Assembly (NCBI RefSeq): GCF_000735695.2
Contig: NZ_JASZ02000005.1
Location: forward strand, 1 to 64,000
From: Kaistella haifensis DSM 19056
GTDB taxonomy: Bacteria > Bacteroidota > Bacteroidia > Flavobacteriales > Weeksellaceae
Reading direction: 5' to 3'
DNA: 64,000 nt
Made by a program: the position numbers and the translations under genes. Shown here piece by piece: positions 2,613-22,955 of the stretch (the stretch's first letter is position 1; each line of letters starts with the position of its first letter). The notes beneath the pieces are model-generated. The model did not search any database, was not told the DNA's origin, and saw nothing but the letters and a program-made list of their open reading frames with translations.

Positions 2613-3131
2613 TCAGCGAAGCAATTTTTCGAATGCTTTTCTTGCAGAACCCCTGAAATAAACTTCTCCGCAATAGGTGTAATTCAGTTTCTCTAGAATT
2701 TTAAGCATCGCAAGATTATCGAAATTGGTATCTAATTTTATACTGAAGACTTGTTGCTGTTTGGCAAAATTTTCAATTTCCAAGAATAATTTTGAGGCAA
2801 TTCCTTTTCCTAGAAACCCATCTGAAACGGCTACTCGATGTATCACCAAAAAATCATTTTCACTCAGCCATTTTCCGTCAATGTTTTCATAAGCAGGTTC
2901 ATTATTAAAAATTAATGCTGAATAAGCTGCAGTTTCACCATCGATTTCAAAAATATAACCAAAACCGTTTTCTATATCTTCACGAATAGTATCGGGATTG
3001 GGATATCCATCTTGCCACTGCGAACTGCCATCGTTCTTTCTTCTTAAAATTGCTTGTTGTACTATTTCCCAAATCACTGCTTGATCAGCTGGGGTTGCTT
3101 TTCTTAGAATAAAGTTTTCTTGTGATTGCAT
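2613..3131 (-). CDS. GNAT-family N-acetyltransferase
   Basis: A 172-residue acetyl-CoA-dependent acyltransferase of the GNAT superfamily. The N-terminal strand and helix (ILRKATPADQAVIWEIV) and the acetyl-CoA-binding motif A (HRVAVSDGFLGKGIASKLFLEIENFA, with the G-x-G-K-G-I-A loop) around residues 95-125 are clear, followed by LDTNFDNLAMLKILEKLNY as motif B. Substrate unknown; the best guess is a free amino group on a small molecule or protein N-terminus. It is expressed from its own -7 box at 3150-3157 and lies downstream of gpmI's divergent neighbours, so no operon context informs its role. Confidence 0.85.
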   Translation of the reverse strand: MQSQENFILRKATPADQAVIWEIVQQAILRRKNDGSSQWQDGYPNPDTIREDIENGFGYIFEIDGETAAYSALIFNNEPAYENIDGKWLSENDFLVIHRVAVSDGFLGKGIASKLFLEIENFAKQQQVFSIKLDTNFDNLAMLKILEKLNYTYCGEVYFRGSARKAFEKLLR

Positions 3132-3149
3132 TTTCGATTTTTAATATTG

Positions 3150-3157
3150 CAAATTTA
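3150..3157 (-). promoter_or_regulatory. -7 box of the GNAT gene
   Basis: Minus-strand TAAATTTG, a full TAnnTTTG match, 18 bp before the ATG. It shows that the GNAT gene does not depend on the small-RNA promoter farther upstream. Confidence 0.5.
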
Positions 3158-3202
3158 TCGATGATTATCTCGAAATCGCACAAAATACAGCATTAATAAA
3201 TA

Positions 3203-3282
3203 AAAAAAGAGACTGCCCCAAAGGACAGCCTCTCCAATTGCTTTAAAAAAAAATAAATATAAAGAAAGAATTGCTTCTTTTG
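3203..3282 (-). ncRNA. Candidate small RNA 2 (about 80 nt) of the curli-linked regulon
   Basis: On the minus strand a complete small transcription unit is visible: the GGGT-dyad site (3320-3333), 23 bp, the -7 box TAATTTTG (3289-3296), then about 80 nt ending in an intrinsic terminator. The terminator stem pairs GAGGCTGTCC with GGGCAGTCTC (two G-U pairs), followed by seven U. The body holds two copies of AAGCAATT and a long U tract, no start codon with a useful frame. It ends before the GNAT gene's own -7 box, so it is not a leader of that gene. The start point is estimated from the -7 box; expression is inferred. No known RNA family was recognised. Confidence 0.5.
3204..3236 (-). terminator. 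Terminator of candidate small RNA 2
   Basis: Minus strand: GAGGCTGTCC-TTTG-GGGCAGTCTC followed by TTTTTTT. Ten-base stem with two G-U pairs, tight loop, U tract on the minus side only. Confidence 0.7.
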
Positions 3283-3288
3283 TAGCTT

Positions 3289-3340
3289 CAAAATTAAACT
3301 AAAATTTTCGATCGGAAATCCGTGAAAACACCCTTTTTTT
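3289..3340 (-). promoter_or_regulatory. Site B: GGGT-dyad site and -7 box of small RNA 2
   Basis: Read on the minus strand: A7, then GGGTGTTTTCACGG (3333-3320), 23 bp, then TAATTTTG (3296-3289). Core, A tract, -7 box and spacing all match site C, which lies 129 bp upstream on the same strand. Confidence 0.65.
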
Positions 3341-3343
3341 GCT

Positions 3344-3376
3344 TAAAAAAACCGGTTTTAGAAACCGGTCTTCTTT
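3344..3376. terminator. Terminator of candidate small RNA 1
   Basis: Perfect hairpin ACCGGTTT-tag-AAACCGGT at 3351-3369. On the minus strand it is followed by TTTTTT (3345-3350); on the plus strand by CTTCTTTTT, so it may work in both directions. Confidence 0.75.
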
Positions 3377-3411
3377 TTAACATCTGTGTTTGTGTGTTTT
3401 TCTGTAATTCA
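3344..3411 (-). ncRNA. Candidate small RNA 1 (about 68 nt) of the curli-linked regulon
   Basis: The second minus-strand small unit starts directly behind the NarL-type regulator gene: a perfect dyad (3449-3462), 23 bp, the -7 box TAATTTTG (3418-3425), then about 68 nt ending in a terminator with a perfect 8-bp stem ACCGGTTT/AAACCGGT and a U6 tract. The body is A/C-rich and looks unstructured (ACAGAAAAACACACAAACAC), the kind of stretch that could pair with mRNAs. A single ATG near the 3' end opens a frame that runs through the terminator, so a peptide is unlikely. It ends a few bases before site B, so the two units are stacked head to tail. Expression is inferred. Confidence 0.5.
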
Positions 3412-3417
3412 GTGAGA

Positions 3418-3468
3418 CAAAATTACAACAACAAAGTTTACAAAGTAAGGGTGAAAACACCCTTTTTT
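3418..3468 (-). promoter_or_regulatory. Site C: perfect GGGTG-TTTT-CACCC dyad and -7 box of small RNA 1
   Basis: The minus strand shows AAAAAAGGGTGTTTTCACCC (3468-3449), a perfect 5+4+5 inverted repeat and the best copy of the motif, then 23 bp, then TAATTTTG (3425-3418). The A tract overlaps the last codons of the upstream response-regulator gene, whose stop is at 3467-3469. Confidence 0.7.
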
Positions 3469-4111
3469 ACATTAAGTTGTGTTTTATCGCAAACAATACG
3501 ATTCCTACTCTGGTTTTTACATTTAACTTTAGGAAAACAGAATCCCTATAACCATCTATTGTCCTGTGACTTACACACATTTGTTCACTAATTTCTTTGT
3601 AAGTAAGTTCAGAGCAGGCCATTCGAATAAATTCTAGTTCCCTGTCTTTTAATCTTTCATCCATTTCATGAAGGAATTTTTCTTCAGTTTTAATTTTTAA
3701 TAGGCTTTGGGTAAGCAAATCGGTATAGAAAATTCCTTTTTCATGTACGATATTGATGGCATTAAATAGGATTTCAGGAGACATATCTTTCAGCAAATAA
3801 CCTTTGGCTCCGGCTTTTAGCATTCTGATTATCGTAGTTTCATTGTCTTCCATCGTGAGGGCAATTACTTTTAGATTTGGAAATTCCTTGGTAAGTTGCA
3901 TCGTAGTTTCGATTCCGTTTTTTACGGGCATATTGATGTCCATTAGCACCACTTCGGGATGTCTTTTATGGTTTCTCAATTCTTCCAAAAACTCTTGCCC
4001 GTTGAAACAATTCATAATGACCTGAAAATTTGGATTGAAGGAAATCATATTTTCCAAAGCTTTGGAAACTAACTTATGATCATCCACAATGGCAATTTTT
4101 ATTTTATCCAT
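3467..4111 (-). CDS. NarL/LuxR-family response regulator
   Basis: A 214-residue two-component response regulator. Residues 1-125 form a canonical receiver: acidic pair Asp10-Asp11 in IVDDH, phospho-acceptor Asp58 in LMDINMP, the switch Thr in ALTMED and the conserved Lys in GYLLKDMS. Residues 150-214 form a GerE/LuxR helix-turn-helix (LKDRELEFIRMACSELTYKEISEQ...RTIDGYR). It is the last gene of the 6097-3467 operon, 5 bp behind the kinase that probably phosphorylates it. LuxR-type regulators bind dyads as dimers, and dyads of one type stand before this operon and immediately after this gene, so it is the first candidate for the protein that reads the GGGT-dyad sites. That link is inference. 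Confidence 0.92.
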   Translation of the reverse strand: MDKIKIAIVDDHKLVSKALENMISFNPNFQVIMNCFNGQEFLEELRNHKRHPEVVLMDINMPVKNGIETTMQLTKEFPNLKVIALTMEDNETTIIRMLKAGAKGYLLKDMSPEILFNAINIVHEKGIFYTDLLTQSLLKIKTEEKFLHEMDERLKDRELEFIRMACSELTYKEISEQMCVSHRTIDGYRDSVFLKLNVKTRVGIVLFAIKHNLM

Positions 4112-4116
4112 AAGAA

Positions 4117-4887
4117 TTATTTTTTATAAGAAACACATACTTTTGTACCGATATTTTCTAAAGAATTGATCAACAATTCAGCATTGATGAGTTTTGCCCG
4201 GCTTCCCATATTTTTAATTCCGCTTCCGTCGTTTTCTAAAGCAGAATTAAATCCTACTCCATTATCATTGATTTCAATGTTAAGATTTTCCGGAGAATCT
4301 ATTACCAACAATTGCAAATCTTTTGATTGGGAGTGCTTAATTACGTTATTGATACATTCCTGTACGATTCTAAACAAAATGAGCGCATGATTGGAGTTTA
4401 TTTTCAATTCCTGATTATTGTTTTGATAATCGACATTCAATAAATCTAGCCTTTTGATCCTAAAAATTTCCCGCTCGAGCGACTCGATAAAGCCAAATTG
4501 TTTGACCTGTTTGGTGATGAAAACTTTCGAAAGATTCCTGATATCCTGAATACATTCTCCCAAAAGCAAATTTATTTCTTCCGCGATTTCAACTCGGACC
4601 TTATCATCTGAAAATGAAATTTTATTGGTCATCAACCGTGCGACTGATAGTTTTTGCCCTAGATCATCATGCAGCTCTTGACCGATATAATTTAGCGTTT
4701 GTTCCTGGATTTCAACTTGAGATTTGGCCAATTCGTGTTCAAAAATCGCTTCTTTGCGTTGTTGGCTAAGCAGGAGTTGAGATTTTTTTTTCACGAAAAT
4801 GCCGTAAATCGCCACCATCATCAATACTACGAACAAAATGATAATGGTAGAAAAAATAATTAAAATATCAACTTCATTTGTTTTCAA
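4117..4887 (-). CDS. HisKA_3-type sensor histidine kinase with one membrane helix
   Basis: A 256-residue kinase with one N-terminal membrane helix (residues 8-31) and no extracytoplasmic domain. A helical linker leads to the HisKA_3 dimerisation box GQELHDDLGQKLSVARL with phospho-accepting His73, followed by a HATPase_c domain with the N box (QECINNVIKHS), G1 (INDNGVGFN) and G2 (GSGIKNMGSRA). This subfamily usually pairs with NarL-type regulators, here the next gene. It starts within the stop of the upstream membrane protein (4-bp overlap), so translation is probably coupled. Lacking a sensor domain, it most likely takes its signal from the neighbouring multi-pass protein, from the lipoprotein, or from both (inference). 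Confidence 0.9.
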   Translation of the reverse strand: MKTNEVDILIIFSTIIILFVVLMMVAIYGIFVKKKSQLLLSQQRKEAIFEHELAKSQVEIQEQTLNYIGQELHDDLGQKLSVARLMTNKISFSDDKVRVEIAEEINLLLGECIQDIRNLSKVFITKQVKQFGFIESLEREIFRIKRLDLLNVDYQNNNQELKINSNHALILFRIVQECINNVIKHSQSKDLQLLVIDSPENLNIEINDNGVGFNSALENDGSGIKNMGSRAKLINAELLINSLENIGTKVCVSYKK

Positions 4888-5561
4888 TGATTATCTTCAT
4901 TTAGGTTTGTTTTTTTACTAAAAAAAATCCCGACAAGCATGATCGTGTAACCAGTAAAGTTAACAGTATAAAGTAAAATTAAGAAAATATTTCGTGAAAT
5001 TGATAATTCCATGGCATTTTTGCTAATAATCATCAACGGAAGCATACCAACATATAAAACTACGAGGCTAATTGCGATCCAAAACGGATAATAATCCATG
5101 ATATTAAGGACTTTCTCGGAGTTGAAGGTCTCAAAGAAAAACAAAGCAACACTCGCTAGTAACAAAAAAATCGTTACAAAATAAGTTGGATACGGCAGAT
5201 AAATGAAAAAATCTTCGATAAAGATGAGAGAAAATATAATATTTAAAATATCTAAACCGATAATTCCCAGTTGTATTGTTTTTAACCTTTTGTTTTCCAA
5301 CGTTTTATAAAAATAAACAAATACCGAAAGAAAAAATAAAATAATGACGCCTACAACGTTGATTCTATTGACTCTGAAGCTATCACCATACAAAATAGTT
5401 CCGAGTAAAGACAAAGACTCGGAGAGAAAAACGAACAACATCGCGATAATAAAATAATGAATTTGGCTTCCTAATTTTTTCCTTTTAATCACCATAAATA
5501 AGATGATTAGAAAATAAATAAAAATCAAAATACTAGAAAGCAATATTCTATTAATTTCCAT
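4884..5561 (-). CDS. Multi-pass membrane protein, likely sensor partner of the kinase
   Basis: A 225-residue protein made almost entirely of hydrophobic segments, about seven (roughly residues 7-25, 36-54, 68-87, 97-115, 125-146, 156-178, 188-212), with short loops and a charged C-terminus (KKTNLNEDNH). No family was recognised. The layout resembles the seven-helix module that is fused to kinases in 7TM sensor proteins, but here it is a separate gene translationally coupled to a kinase that has no sensor domain. It lies 11 bp behind the lipoprotein gene. A signal-perception role is inferred from this context only. Confidence 0.6.
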   Translation of the reverse strand: MEINRILLSSILIFIYFLIILFMVIKRKKLGSQIHYFIIAMLFVFLSESLSLLGTILYGDSFRVNRINVVGVIILFFLSVFVYFYKTLENKRLKTIQLGIIGLDILNIIFSLIFIEDFFIYLPYPTYFVTIFLLLASVALFFFETFNSEKVLNIMDYYPFWIAISLVVLYVGMLPLMIISKNAMELSISRNIFLILLYTVNFTGYTIMLVGIFFSKKTNLNEDNH

Positions 5562-6114: not shown

Positions 6115-6164
6115 CAAAATTACTTTATATTTGGAAACAATTTCAGGTGAAAACACCCTTTTTT
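6115..6164 (-). promoter_or_regulatory. Site D: GGGT-dyad site and -7 box of the signalling operon
   Basis: Read on the minus strand: A6, GGGTGTTTTCACCT (6158-6145), 22 bp, TAATTTTG (6122-6115). The ATG of the first operon gene is at 6097, so the leader is very short. Presence of the site in front of the regulator's own operon suggests autoregulation. Confidence 0.65.
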
Positions 6165-16463: not shown

Positions 16464-16482
16464 AAAAAGGGTGATTTTACTA
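16464..16482 (+). promoter_or_regulatory. Site E: distal GGGT site of the curlin gene
   Basis: AAAAA followed by GGGTGATTTTACTA (16469-16482), ten of fourteen matches to the best copy GGGTGTTTTCACCC; the right half-site is weak. It lies exactly 71 bp upstream of the -7 box TACATTTG. The csgB-like operon has the same 71-bp spacing. Confidence 0.5.
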
Positions 16483-16593: not shown

Positions 16594-17478
16594 ATGAAAA
16601 AATTATTTGCAAGTGCCTGCGCACTTATGTCTTTCGGATTTGCTTACTCACAAGCGAACATTGATGTATCTACTCAGTTAGGTAATTTAAACGAGGCCTA
16701 TGTAAACCAAACCGGTTTCGTGAACATGAACTTCCTTACACAGGATGGGAATCTTAATTTTGCCACTATCGATCAGGTAGGTGCCGGTAATATGAATTTT
16801 GCATTGAGCGATGGAAACCGAAATGTAATTGATGTTGATCAATATGGTATTCTTAACATGAATCAAGTTGAACAGTACGGAAATAGAAACGAAGCTTCTA
16901 CACTCCAAGTTGGTTTAGCTAATGCTACTTCTCAAATGCAAATTGGAAATCGAAATGTTGCTTCTTCTACACAATTAGGGATGCTAAATGTTGCAAGCCA
17001 ATACCAACAGGGAAACCGAAATGAAGCTAGTACGCTACAAGTTGGTGCATTAAACGAATCTGACCAAGAACAAATTGGTAACAGAAACGAGGCTTCTTCT
17101 ATACAATTAGGTGTCAATAATGATGTAATACAGGAACAATGGGGTAATAGAAACGAGGCTTACGCATTGCAAGTAGGTTCGGATAACTTTATTTGGCAAA
17201 CACAAGATGGAAACAGAAACGAGGCTAGTCATATACAATTGGGTAACGACAACGTAGCTGATTCTTGGCAAGTTGGAAATCGTAACAGCACCACAGGTTT
17301 GCAAGTTGGAAGTGATAACGAATTACACCAATGGCAATTTGGTAATGACAATACAGCAATCGATTTACAGATCGGTAGCAGCAACTACACATCTGTACTT
17401 CAATTAGGAACAAATCATTTCCACTTAGGAACTCAAGTTGGTAATGGCAACACTTTATTTACATTCCAATCTAACTAA
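16594..17478 (+). CDS. csgA: Curlin-repeat major amyloid subunit (CsgA-like)
   Basis: A 294-residue secreted protein: a Sec signal peptide (residues 1 to about 19, ending AYSQA) followed by about twelve curlin-type repeats of 22 residues, each made of two 11-residue strands with Q-x-G-x-x-N turns. From residue about 90 the units begin with a nearly fixed GNRNEAS turn followed by LQVG or IQLG; toward the C-terminus the pattern loosens (GNDNTAI, GSSNYTS). Such repeats stack into the cross-beta spine of curli amyloid on the cell surface; export is through CsgG. E. coli CsgA has five repeats, so this subunit is more than twice as long. It has its own terminator at 17502-17534, so it is monocistronic, and a GGGT site upstream. 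Confidence 0.9.
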   Translation: MKKLFASACALMSFGFAYSQANIDVSTQLGNLNEAYVNQTGFVNMNFLTQDGNLNFATIDQVGAGNMNFALSDGNRNVIDVDQYGILNMNQVEQYGNRNEASTLQVGLANATSQMQIGNRNVASSTQLGMLNVASQYQQGNRNEASTLQVGALNESDQEQIGNRNEASSIQLGVNNDVIQEQWGNRNEAYALQVGSDNFIWQTQDGNRNEASHIQLGNDNVADSWQVGNRNSTTGLQVGSDNELHQWQFGNDNTAIDLQIGSSNYTSVLQLGTNHFHLGTQVGNGNTLFTFQSN

Positions 17479-17568: not shown

Positions 17569-17587
17569 AAAAAGGGTTTTTACACCC
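17569..17587 (+). promoter_or_regulatory. Site F: distal GGGT-dyad site of the csgB-like/csgEFG operon
   Basis: AAAAA followed by GGGTTTTTACACCC (17574-17587), twelve of fourteen matches to the best copy with intact outer arms GGGT/ACCC. It is 71 bp upstream of TAATTTTA, as at the curlin gene. Confidence 0.55.
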
Positions 17588-17658
17588 CATAGTCGTAATT
17601 AAAAATAACCAAATTCAAAACTAGTATTTAAGGTGATATTCAAGTCACTATTAATAAG

Positions 17659-17666
17659 TAATTTTA
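17659..17666 (+). promoter_or_regulatory. Putative -7 box of the csgB-like/csgEFG operon
   Basis: TAATTTTA has one mismatch to TAnnTTTG at the last base. It lies 11 bp before the ATG at 17678; chosen because it stands at the same 71-bp distance from the GGGT site as in the curlin promoter. Confidence 0.45.
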
Positions 17667-17677
17667 TCAAACTAATC

Positions 17678-18091
17678 ATGAAAACTATAACCAGAATATC
17701 AACTATTTTCTTGTTGGTAGTTGCGTACTTCGCTTCTTCTCAACAAATTTATTTTGAGAACGTCAATAGTAATAACGCTCTGGCTATTATTACGCAATTA
17801 CAACCAACACCTCAGGAAGGCACCAGTTCAGAAAGCATCAACTATCAGTATGGAAATCACAACTTTTCTGAAATTTACACCAATAGCAAAACGGACTTGT
17901 CAACGATACAAATTGGGGATTATAATTATTTGAACTTTAACAATATGTTCGATAAAAAATCTGCGGATCCTACAATCACTACTCAAGGTAATAACAATAT
18001 TATCGATATCACAGGAAGCAACAGCATATCCGAAAAAATTCAGCTCCATGTGAAAGGTGACAATATGACGATATTTATGAGGAACTATTAA
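17678..18091 (+). CDS. Second curlin-like subunit, candidate nucleator (CsgB-like)
   Basis: A 137-residue protein with a Sec signal peptide (MKTITRISTIFLLVVAYFASSQQ). Four or five imperfect curlin-like turns are present: YQYGNHNFSEI, IQIGDYNYLNF, TTQGNNNIIDI, and HVKGDNMTIFMRNY at the very end. A short subunit with few degenerate repeats, next to a long regular one, is the pattern of CsgB, which anchors and nucleates CsgA. The assignment rests on this and on its position as first gene before csgE, 12 bp apart. The in-frame ATG at 17633 was rejected as start because it would put 15 residues in front of a complete signal peptide and lies upstream of the -7 box. Confidence 0.65.
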   Translation: MKTITRISTIFLLVVAYFASSQQIYFENVNSNNALAIITQLQPTPQEGTSSESINYQYGNHNFSEIYTNSKTDLSTIQIGDYNYLNFNNMFDKKSADPTITTQGNNNIIDITGSNSISEKIQLHVKGDNMTIFMRNY

Positions 18092-20665: not shown

Positions 20666-22168
20666 ATGAAAAATTTATATACTTACCTACTAATCGGTTT
20701 ATTTTCGCTCACGCTTTTTTCCTGTAAAGAAGAAATTGTGGATCAAGTTCAAACAGGTTCCATCAAAGGAAAAGTGGTAACAAGAGGAACGAATACTCCT
20801 CTGAAAAACGTGAAAATAACGACTTCACCGTCCACCAATACAGTTTTTACAGCAGCTGACGGAAGTTTTGAAATTACAGAAGTTCCCATGGGGGATTATT
20901 CTGTAAAAGCAGAAGTTTCCGGATATCTCAATAATTTTCAATCTGCTAATTTAAAAAACTCCGGTCAAGCAGTTACTCTCGCCTTTGAAATGGATGATGA
21001 TGAATCTTTAAATACAGCTCCTTCAATTCCGGAATTATTGAGCCCAACTGACAACGCAGAAAATCAACCGCTCACCGTACAACTTTCCTGGAGATCTACG
21101 GATCCTGATTCACTGGATGTTTTAAAATATCGATTGATCGTGAAAAACAATTTCAACACCAATGTTCTGGAAATAAAGGATTTGGAAGCAACCACCTACA
21201 CCTTGGAAGATTTGGTTTACGGAGCAAGTTATTTTTGGCAAGTTGTGGTAAACGATGGGATTCACAACGATGTTTACAGCCCTGTTTATAAATTCACCAC
21301 GAATAAAGTTCCGCAAAATCGCTATCATTTTGTAAGAAAAGAAAACGGAAATTCCTATATTGTTTCGAGTGACGAAGCGGGAACGAGTTTCAATCTCACC
21401 TCCAATTCATTCAACAGTTGGCGACCGAGAAAGAACAACAACGCCGGTTTGATCGCTTTTCTGAGAACAGAAGGTGGAAATTCTCACATTTTCACGGCAA
21501 AACCCGACGGAACCGAAGTTTTTAAAGTTACTGGAATTCCTGTTGCTGGATTTAATAATACCGAACTCGACTTTGCTTGGAGCACCAATGGCGAAAAATT
21601 CATTTATCCGAATTTTAATAAATTGTATAAAATCAATAAAGACGGTAGCGGCCAGGAATTACTATACACGAACACCGATGGAAGCTTGATTTCAGAATGC
21701 GACTGGAGTTACGATGGAAGTAAAATAGCTCTAAAAACGAATGATTTACATGGTTACAATTCTAAAATTATCGTCATTGATATGCTCGGAAATACCCTCA
21801 AAACCGTTTTATCAGACGCAAACGGAGCTTCAGGAGGCCTCAATTTCTCGGTAGATGGTAATTATTTAGTGTATTGTCATGATGTTTCTGGATATCAAGA
21901 TAATCATTACCGACAACTGGATTCGCATATTTTCTTGTACAATCTTACCACCAACACTGCCCGTGACCTTTCCGTAGAAAGTGAAAAAGAAAATGGAACC
22001 AATGATTTGGATCCAAGATTATCACCCAACAATTCACAAATTATTTTCACCAATACCTCAAATGACGGAATTTCTGTGAAAAACATTATGGTTATTTCTA
22101 TTTCTTCTGACACGGAATCTGAAAGAGCAAGTCTTTTCAGCAATGGAGAAATGCCAGATTGGGAATAG
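20666..22168 (+). CDS. Curli-operon lipoprotein: carboxypeptidase-regulatory, Fn3-like and beta-propeller domains
   Basis: A 500-residue lipoprotein (lipobox LFSC, Cys20) placed 6 bp behind csgG and ahead of the operon terminator. Residues 30-110 are a carboxypeptidase-regulatory-like beta-sandwich (GSIKGKVVTRGTNTPLKNVKI, ADGSFEITEVPMGDYSVKAE). Residues 118-215 resemble a fibronectin type III domain (PSIPELLSPTDNAENQPLTVQLSW, YFWQVVVNDG). Residues 220-500 form a TolB/PD40-type propeller with repeated W-S-x-D/N-G blades (FAWSTNGEKFIYP, CDWSYDGSKIAL, LNFSVDGNYLVYC, LSPNNSQIIFT). E. coli has no counterpart in its curli operons. It probably works at the cell surface on or near the curli exporter, but its role is unknown. 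Confidence 0.75.
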   Translation: MKNLYTYLLIGLFSLTLFSCKEEIVDQVQTGSIKGKVVTRGTNTPLKNVKITTSPSTNTVFTAADGSFEITEVPMGDYSVKAEVSGYLNNFQSANLKNSGQAVTLAFEMDDDESLNTAPSIPELLSPTDNAENQPLTVQLSWRSTDPDSLDVLKYRLIVKNNFNTNVLEIKDLEATTYTLEDLVYGASYFWQVVVNDGIHNDVYSPVYKFTTNKVPQNRYHFVRKENGNSYIVSSDEAGTSFNLTSNSFNSWRPRKNNNAGLIAFLRTEGGNSHIFTAKPDGTEVFKVTGIPVAGFNNTELDFAWSTNGEKFIYPNFNKLYKINKDGSGQELLYTNTDGSLISECDWSYDGSKIALKTNDLHGYNSKIIVIDMLGNTLKTVLSDANGASGGLNFSVDGNYLVYCHDVSGYQDNHYRQLDSHIFLYNLTTNTARDLSVESEKENGTNDLDPRLSPNNSQIIFTNTSNDGISVKNIMVISISSDTESERASLFSNGEMPDWE

Positions 22169-22232: not shown

Positions 22233-22892
22233 CTATTTCACCAAACTATGGTCTATAGCGTATTTCACCAATCGTGATGAATTATTAATATTCAGCTTCA
22301 GCATAATATTACGTCTGTGAGATTCTACGGTGTGAACACTGATAAAAAGCTTCTCAGCAATCTCTTTAGTCCGCAATCCTTCGCAAATAAGACTCAACAC
22401 ATCCATTTCTCTAGCAGTCAATTCGTCAGCTCCTGAAGGTTTTTCCCGATCCGGATCGTTTACGCTACAAATGTAATTGAAGAGATCGTTTTTAGTATCT
22501 TCATTAATATAAACCAATCCTTTTTTAGCAGATTGTATGGATTTCAGGAACTCTTCGGAGTCGGTATTTTTGCCCAAATATGCTTTTATTCCTTTATCAA
22601 AAAGTCTCTTAATTATTTTCACATCAGAATTTCCGGAAAGTACAATGATTTTCATTTCACTATTTAGCAGTAACAATTTATCGATCAATTCGAATTTTTC
22701 ATTAATGTTTTCTGCAGTTAAATTCAGTATTAAAAAATCAATTTTTGTTACATCAATTTGCTCAATCTCCTGATTAGAAGAGACTAAATAAATAGGATGT
22801 AATTTAGAAAATCCATTTGCGTCGAGGAAATCCCTCATTAATTCTAGAAGAAACTGATGGTTTCCATAAATTGTAATATTCTTTTTCATCAT
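22233..22892 (-). CDS. Orphan LuxR-family regulator with degenerate receiver (CsgD-like)
   Basis: A 219-residue regulator. The C-terminal LuxR/GerE helix-turn-helix (residues about 152-215: ELTAREMDVLSLICEGLRTK, EIAEKLFISVHTVESHRRNI) is canonical. The N-terminal receiver fold has lost its phosphorylation pocket: the acidic pair is Gly10-Asn11 (IYGNH), and the phospho-acceptor position is Asn57 in FLILNLTAEN; the switch Ser (VLSGNSD) and the Lys (AYLGKN) remain. Classical Asp phosphorylation is therefore unlikely. E. coli CsgD, the curli master regulator, is also a LuxR-type protein with an atypical receiver. With its position facing the curli operon and its GGGT-dyad promoter, this is a good candidate for a functional CsgD counterpart. 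No kinase gene adjacent. Confidence 0.85.
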   Translation of the reverse strand: MMKKNITIYGNHQFLLELMRDFLDANGFSKLHPIYLVSSNQEIEQIDVTKIDFLILNLTAENINEKFELIDKLLLLNSEMKIIVLSGNSDVKIIKRLFDKGIKAYLGKNTDSEEFLKSIQSAKKGLVYINEDTKNDLFNYICSVNDPDREKPSGADELTAREMDVLSLICEGLRTKEIAEKLFISVHTVESHRRNIMLKLNINNSSRLVKYAIDHSLVK

Positions 22893-22904
22893 TATGTGTT
22901 TTCG

Positions 22905-22955
22905 CTAAATTACTAAAAATCATCTAATTACAAAATGGTGAAATAACCCTTTTTT
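22905..22955 (-). promoter_or_regulatory. Site G: GGGT-dyad site and -7 box of the CsgD-like gene
   Basis: On the minus strand: A6, GGGTTATTTCACCA (22949-22936), 23 bp, TAATTTAG (22912-22905; one mismatch to TAnnTTTG). The 13 core bases GGGTTATTTCACC are identical to site A. The ATG at 22892 is so close that the leader is a few bases at most. Confidence 0.6.

Follow-up and report, generated by a model that had tools for sequence, protein, structure and literature searches.

What is encoded in the interval directly behind the NarL-type response-regulator gene (RR) on the minus strand of this Kaistella contig, and is it connected to the curli locus of the same window (the whole 64-kb stretch of DNA that was analysed)? 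Post-transcriptional control is little mapped in flavobacteria, and the initial annotation had proposed that the interval holds two stand-alone small RNA (sRNA) genes under a common regulator site, a reading that their anatomy and conservation support. We consider it reasonably probable that units 1 and 2 are stand-alone sRNA genes, that unit 1 and an unlinked RNA, unit 3, act as sponges of sRNAs directed against translation starts (anti-start sRNAs), and that unit 2 targets the mRNA of an NlpC/P60 lipoprotein.

Two short units behind the response-regulator gene

Each minus-strand unit, read directly from the window, consists of a GGGTGTTTTCAC site, 25 bp, the element TAATTTTG, and an intrinsic terminator (Table 1), and this reading, together with a hairpin scan, bears out the earlier description of two complete units behind RR, each with its own site, -7 box, and terminator. 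The hairpin of unit 1 is a near-palindrome that the scan reported on the plus strand only. Some details have changed: the distance between site and -7 box, previously given as 23 bp, measures 25 bp when counted from where TTTTCAC ends (and 21 bp when the whole unit 1 palindrome is taken); the dyad assigned to both sites is a full palindrome at site 1 only, as site 2 reads GGGTGTTTTCACGG; and of the lengths of about 68 and about 80 nt, the first stands and the second becomes about 84 nt. The downstream GNAT gene has, as had been noted, its own TAAATTTG after the second terminator.

The TAnnTTTG at the -7 position of the units fits the Bacteroidetes housekeeping-sigma promoter consensus, as quoted from an excerpt of PMC7366714. 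When compared with dinucleotide shuffles, the minus-strand folding of unit 1 has a z-score of -2.95 and that of unit 2 a z-score of -2.80. Both units have their own promoter and their own terminator, and an ORF check on unit 1 found no conserved peptide; we infer that both are transcribed. No match to Rfam 15 was found at the gathering cut-off in the window or in nine related loci; searches by E-value gave sub-threshold matches only.

Table 1. Coordinates of the features discussed, as positions in the 64-kb window
Feature	Position	Strand	Remarks
Unit 1 RNA, candidate sponge	3345..3412	-	Length about 68 nt, with the start predicted by the -7 box
Regulator site 1	3451..3467 (3467-3451)	-	AAAAAGGGTGTTTTCAC, palindrome GGGTG-TTTT-CACCC; kept behind RR in relatives
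-7 promoter element of unit 1	3418..3425	-	TAATTTTG; 25 bp after site 1
Unit 1 anti-seed	3373..3391	-	AAACACAGATGTTAAAAAG; small internal loop in the complementarity to the sRNA seed; -15.4 kcal/mol
Unit 1 intrinsic terminator	3345..3369	-	ACCGGTTT..AAACCGGT and T run; covariation in relatives
Unit 2 RNA, candidate base-pairing sRNA	3200..3283	-	About 84 nt; predicted start
Regulator site 2	3322..3338	-	AAAAAGGGTGTTTTCAC; 25 bp before the unit 2 -7 element
-7 element of unit 2	3289..3296	-	TAATTTTG
Unit 2 U-rich conserved pairing core	3236..3271	-	Predicted pairing with the NlpC/P60 lipoprotein leader
Unit 2 intrinsic terminator stem	3206..3235	-	T run after the stem; hairpin scan, minus strand
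NarL-type response regulator RR (Response_reg + GerE)	3467..4111	-	Presumed activator of both units; 33/36 genomes
HisKA_3-type histidine kinase	4117..4887	-	Same gene cluster as RR
Regulator site ahead of the gene cluster ending in RR	6147..6163	-	Putative auto-regulation
Regulator-like site ahead of curlin-repeat gene 16594-17478 (Curlin_rpt)	16464..16480	+	
Regulator-like site ahead of gene 17633-18091	17569..17585	+	Gene precedes csgE, csgF, csgG
csgD-like GerE regulator of the curli locus	22233..22892	-	Predicted to be targeted by the sRNA for which unit 1 is a candidate sponge
csgD-like start-codon region	22881..22902	-	AAAACACATAATGATGAAAAAG; seed duplex -26.0 kcal/mol, start codon inside
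Regulator-like site ahead of the csgD-like gene	22938..22954	-	AAAAAGGGTTATTTCAC

The arrangement could in principle be debris, that is, the end of the RR transcript followed by promoters of downstream genes, and the GNAT gene does follow on the same strand in the window. Across 30 loci, however, the next gene of at least 100 aa is convergent with unit 1 in 23, on the same strand in 6, and missing in 1. Each window unit has its own terminator, and in two relatives both units keep site and -7 box with an IS element inserted between them, so that we regard debris as a most improbable explanation. The orientation of the next gene in those 23 loci also speaks against unit 1 as its 5' leader or attenuator.

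The regulator site marks a promoter class of the genus

The 2.85-Mb genome has three copies of AAGGGTGTTTTCAC, all of them in this region, and none of its reversed control. The site followed after 18–28 bp by TAnnTTTG (hereafter, site promoter) is found three times in the window and in none of 60 shuffles, and 121 times in 33 of the 36 genomes of the genus, where the reversed pattern has a single match. At the level of the family, 40 of 246 genomes have site promoters (33 of them in Kaistella; four control matches overall); outside the genus they are limited to 7 of 210 family genomes, with one match apiece. Among 60 of the 121 promoters, the spacers measure 21 (20 copies), 24 (10), 25 (29), and 26 bp (1), and all 20 copies with a spacer of 21 bp stand before one lipoprotein gene and its orthologs.

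Exact copies of AAAAAGGGTNNTTNNAC number nine in the genome, seven of them inside the window: at the RR cluster, units 1 and 2, gene 481, the curlin-repeat gene, the gene preceding csgE, and the csgD-like gene. With up to one mismatch, the whole genome has 22 matches versus 26 for a control that is not split by mismatch, and for the site alone with up to three mismatches, the 14 matches in the window are not clearly above the chance mean of 9.0. Because copies of AAAAAGGGTNNTTNNAC with up to one mismatch are no commoner than those of the control, the sites ahead of the csg genes are leads only. The site at gene 481 (394-410) stands ahead of a gene of 146 aa (481-921) that has no Pfam match.

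Unit 1 is conserved behind RR throughout the genus

RR orthologs (E ≤ 1e-40) are present in 33 of the 36 Kaistella genomes, and when all 33 loci were read, 32 had unit 1, core included, immediately after the RR stop codon. K. palustris DSM 21579 is among the strains with unit 1. Presence was called by position behind RR because the covariance model R1 has a high background (matches in 36/36 genomes at E ≤ 1). The initial annotation had made conservation in close relatives a decisive test, and the outcome differs between the units: it is near-complete among RR genomes for unit 1, and unit 2 was recovered in at least 6 of the 36 genomes. The covariance model of unit 1 matches 29 of its 30 sources (28 RR loci and two further loci, RR loci with an IS element having been left out), missing only G028, in which the anti-seed is present and no hairpin with a U run directly follows. 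A plain DNA search with the interval reached 21 of 36 genomes at E ≤ 0.001, mostly with short pieces and with clear similarity in few. Unit 1 has a changed -7 box or site in G023 and G024. The one exception behind RR is G032 (L397), in which RR, site, and promoter are kept and the RNA that follows is another one, rich in U and ending in a hairpin of its own.

In a 29-row alignment of unit 1, CACAAAT is exact in 24 copies; 12 copies read AAATAATG, which has an A–C mismatch to the sRNA seed described below, and 4 read AAATGATG. Across relatives, five of the eight pairs of the terminator stem are changed on both sides. The covariance analysis suggested in the initial annotation speaks for the stem: its covariation score, obtained from counted pairs after the alignment had been fitted to the model structure, is 0.374 versus 0.259 in shuffles (reached by 0 of 500), and slid versions score 0.04–0.15. 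RNAalifold predicted no pairs on alignment A7.

The core ATG raises the question of whether unit 1 encodes a very short peptide. An ATG lies within the core in 25 of the 29 aligned copies, and the frame opened by it has eight codons in 9 of 30 loci (for example, MKKKRTGF). Over all 30 loci, however, the frames, read from the first ATG behind the core, range from 0 to 53 codons, their sequences differ, and some cross the terminator. As no peptide is conserved, we rejected this reading and hold it to be very unlikely.

In two relatives, an IS element is located inside the unit 1 terminator loop (L054:6752-8501 and L055), with 8-bp duplications offset by one base (GTTTTTAA in L054 and GGTTTTTA in L055); these are perhaps two separate insertions. 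A unit-1-like core with a hairpin occurs at L143 (G025, C4:137627), in a genome with neither an RR match nor a site promoter. Behind RR relatives outside the genus, no unit 1 was seen at L067 (Halpernia) or L068–L071, and L066 (a Cloacibacterium record) has another arrangement.

The core of unit 1 is complementary to a candidate family of anti-start sRNAs

When the unit 1 model was used to search the genus, its opposite-strand matches fell on a small-RNA-like gene in which TAATTTTG is followed by AATAAATTTTTTTTCATCATTTGTGTTTTTAG and a terminator. The sequence TTTTTCATNATTTGTGTTTT is found with at most one mismatch in 34 of the 36 genus genomes, with two control matches overall and with the complements of units 1 and 3 included among the matches. 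An exact match to the 18-mer TTTTCATCATTTGTGTTT was found in 197 of 246 family genomes, from 22 of 33 genera, and its reversed control in none. A few seed matches are coding (C15 in the window's own genome), and in several genus genomes, seed copies lie about 170 bp apart. Among 67 distinct seed copies, a non-random sample that includes orthologs, a terminator immediately follows the seed in 59 and lies on its other side in 3. Because of these terminators, the carriers of the seed UUUUCAUCAUUUGUGUUU look like an sRNA family, to whose seed the core of unit 1 is complementary. In the loci scanned, this family has no Rfam match.

Two side observations concern the arrangement of seed copies. In G008 and G016 (L162 and L171), three sRNA genes with a common seed and differing terminators stand in tandem at a spacing of about 170 bp. 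A repeated hairpin of the CTTTAGGGGAAAG...CTTTCCCGCTAAAG type has the seed or anti-seed in its loop at L194, L195, L196, L199, L201, and L202, with two copies each in L195 and L196.

The predicted duplex of unit 1 with the seed has a median energy of -19.1 kcal/mol over 32 genomes, versus -9.1 kcal/mol for the reversed seed, and is the better of the two in all 32. In a shuffle test of 28 rows, at most 4 of 200 shuffles were as good in 25 rows; the rest are G031 (6 shuffles) and two unit 2 rows. The window's own unit 1 is the weakest of the 32, with 8 of 300 shuffles as good as its -15.4 kcal/mol. The RNA that takes the place of unit 1 in G032 has no anti-seed (-5.4 versus -8.8 kcal/mol for the reversed seed), and the seed does not pair with unit 2 of the window (-6.9 kcal/mol; 118/300 shuffles as good).

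An unlinked candidate sponge shares the core and the regulator site

At another position of the window's own genome (C33:14742), a regulator site is followed by the unit 3 RNA, which contains AAAAAAACACAAATGATGGGAAAATC, has its own hairpin and T run, and is convergent with an ion-channel gene. Its anti-seed is near-perfect (-25.5 kcal/mol; 0/300 shuffles as good). By eye, RNAs resembling unit 3 were classified at 13 of 60 site promoters, one each in 13 genomes, and in some of them (L277, L283, and L287), the core is present twice. Over 14 loci, the median energy of unit 3 with the seed is -22.9 kcal/mol, versus -12.6 kcal/mol for the reversed seed. Unit 3 and unit 1 have the core and the regulator site in common, and the rest differs. 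RNAs behind a regulator site were also seen in L233 near 5390-5500 (G004), where the RNA sits between two large genes, and in L035 near 1506 (G010); their cores read ACACAAATGATG or CACACAGATG.

Complementarity of this kind would also be expected if unit 1 were a conventional sRNA acting in trans on mRNA targets of its own, and if the anti-start sRNAs regulated unit 1 or shared a binding protein with it. The duplexes are symmetric, so the sequence gives no direction, and the window's unit 1 has a classical terminator and a mostly unpaired core. Yet the conserved core resembles a translation start, and the seed that pairs with it also pairs with real starts; the independent unit 3 has core and regulator site, and not the rest, in common with unit 1; and the unit 1 alignments show no other conserved stretch between the -7 box and the core. 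We thus judge a trans-acting role of this sort to be unlikely and proceed with units 1 and 3 as candidate sponges.

The csgD-like mRNA is the foremost predicted target of the seed

Against the leaders of 31 control genes of the window, the seed reaches a median of -8.8 kcal/mol and at best -15.3 kcal/mol, both surpassed by the start-codon region of the window's csgD-like gene (Table 1). Over the csgD-like leaders of 26 genomes, the median is -15.6 kcal/mol versus the -8.8 kcal/mol of the controls (rank test; P-value = 2e-9, with orthologs that are not independent); this set comprises 26 of 27 orthologous loci, with G024 dropped. AACACA stands shortly ahead of the ATG in 14 of these 26 leaders and in 0 of 31 controls. 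By eye, the csgD-like gene adjoins the homolog of window gene 20666-22168 in G003 and G006, matching the order in the window, and not in G018.

The link to curli that the initial annotation had sought is hence retained in an indirect form, through an sRNA predicted to target the csgD-like mRNA; the best partner of unit 1 itself is not a csg mRNA. Seed pairing was poor for the leaders of the csgA-like gene (-8.0 kcal/mol), the gene preceding csgE (-6.1 kcal/mol), and the RR cluster (-8.6 kcal/mol). At E ≤ 1e-25, a csgD-like match is absent from 9 of the 36 genomes, 7 of which keep RR, and because of these seven, curli cannot be the sole purpose of the system. Other mRNAs with a regulator site also pair with the seed better than the controls do: the median is -12.9 kcal/mol for non-lipoprotein mRNAs (n = 20; P-value = 0.002) and -13.2 kcal/mol for lipoprotein mRNAs (n = 20; P-value = 9e-7), orthologs being included in both sets and 40 of the 47 regulator-site leaders without unit 3 having given a usable start.

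Elsewhere in the window's own genome (L208, C3:134721), the start of a gene of 269 aa with no Pfam match carries CCACAAATGATGAAAATT, and genes resembling it in G005, G018, G022, G026, and G034 have a regulator site.

Unit 2 is predicted to pair with a lipoprotein mRNA

Copies of unit 2 were found in G000, G017, G031, G018, G021, and G002, a lower-bound count in which three of the six genomes are close relatives. The U-rich core is kept across the copies while the terminator sequence varies. A one-mismatch match to the core in G006 was rejected, since neither site nor promoter flanks it and the sequence appears to be coding.

In each of the six genomes, unit 2 is predicted to pair with the leader of the genome's own NlpC/P60 lipoprotein gene, at -18.3 to -25.7 kcal/mol and with 0–2 of 300 shuffles as good. 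For every copy, this leader beats all 38 window leaders and all 40 other regulator-site leaders of the genus, a comparison set of 78 that includes unit 3 RNAs and was not taken from the five other unit 2 genomes. The lipoprotein gene (NLPC_P60; C2:98064 in the window's own genome) itself has a regulator site. The duplex is in two parts, at the mRNA 5' end and at the start-codon region, separated by a loop of about 29 nt that RNAduplex may overrate. Pairing of unit 2 with unit 1 is no better than shuffles in five of the six genomes, G018 being the exception (1/300).

RR is the likeliest binder of the site

The likeliest binder of the regulator site is the adjacent RR, since the site precedes both the RR cluster and the two units, and since G025 and G027 fit: both are without RR, site promoters, a csgD-like match, and the sRNA seed. 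Two genomes do not match this pattern. In G024, which has RR, the site at unit 1 is altered and there is no exact site promoter; G011 has one site promoter and no RR match.

The site could instead be bound by the csgD-like protein, which, like RR, is of the GerE type, and regulator-like sites stand ahead of the csg genes and of the csgD-like gene itself. However, G001, G004, G007, G009, G010, G021, and G032 keep RR and site promoters with no csgD-like match, so we find this assignment doubtful and infer that RR is the activator.

Proposed circuit and known systems

In the circuit that we propose, the GGGTG-N4-CAC site would switch on both units, most likely through the adjacent two-component regulator. 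Units 1 and 3 would be decoys that copy a translation-start sequence (of the ACACAAATGATGAAAA type) and base-pair with the anti-start sRNA family through its seed UUUUUCAUCAUUUGUGUUU. Free anti-start sRNAs would cover the start codons that have this sequence, that of the csgD-like mRNA foremost. If the presumed direction of each effect is right, RR would activate its targets twice, by transcription and by removal of the sRNA brake, in a coherent feed-forward loop. It would also activate its own cluster and probably curli-locus and cell-wall genes, and unit 2, with its other seed, would be aimed at the co-activated NlpC/P60 lipoprotein mRNA, whose synthesis it probably caps.

Sponges as such are known, and RbsZ, a sponge of RybB, is derived from an mRNA 3' end. 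In E. coli, sRNA sponges are established for ChiX, with ChiZ and the chbBC spacer (PMC7815308, in excerpt). Units 1 and 3 would resemble these in that an RNA copying the sRNA-pairing site of an mRNA binds the sRNA and frees the mRNA; the ChiX sponges described in that excerpt are pieces of mRNAs, whereas each of units 1 and 3 would be a gene in its own right, with its own regulated promoter and terminator. RybB likewise has several independent sponges (RbsZ, FtsO, and 3'ETS-leuZ), of which FtsO is ORF-internal and 3'ETS-leuZ is a tRNA fragment (PMC7815308, same excerpt). Unlike the RybB sponges as presented there, the two site-driven RNAs have one core and one presumed regulator in common.

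The csgD mRNA of E. coli is a hub for the sRNAs OmrA/OmrB, McaS, and RprA, with involvement of EnvZ/OmpR (PMC3634460, in excerpt). The proposed circuit would be similar in making the mRNA of a curli master regulator a hub and in including a two-component system, and would differ from what that excerpt describes in that pairing takes place at the start codon and the two-component system drives a sponge, not a repressor. Homologs of OmrA/B, McaS, and RprA were sought by Rfam, with no match in the window at the cut-off and none by E-value in 3100-3500.

Bacteroides sRNAs such as GibS act in bacteria with no obvious Hfq or ProQ, and resemble the RNAs proposed here in their TAnnTTTG promoters, AU-richness, and extended seeds (PMC7366714, in excerpt). 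As a member of the GibS family, the unit 2 stretch was rejected (27.5 bits versus a cut-off of 115). In Flavobacterium psychrophilum, Rfp18 is a conserved flavobacterial sRNA with genetic evidence, and the targets reported in the excerpted text are metalloproteases (PMC9723704); we set it beside the CAUCAUUUGUG family by description. No paper on the present RNAs was among the matches listed in a search of titles and abstract starts of the open-licence literature, and a system of stand-alone sponges driven from a regulator site seems to be new for Bacteroidetes.

Implications for the genus and the family

The analysis offers an sRNA family whose seed can be tested, names the csgD-like mRNA as its predicted hub target, and adds candidate regulated sponges, the loss of which should give a simple read-out. 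If the proposal is true, the curli circuit would be parallel to that of E. coli and unrelated to it in sequence, and the sponges would be stand-alone genes controlled by an activator. More broadly, and with our confidence evenly balanced for and against, the anti-start sRNAs may be a set with a near-invariant seed in most of the family (197 of 246 genomes), mostly in more than one copy per genome, and the two-component regulator of one genus may have recruited dedicated sponges at no fewer than two loci and a second sRNA with a different target. That regulator would thereby control a biofilm and cell-wall regulon, with the csgD-like mRNA as its hub, at the level of transcription as well as translation, and sRNA control of curli would have arisen independently of that in enterobacteria.
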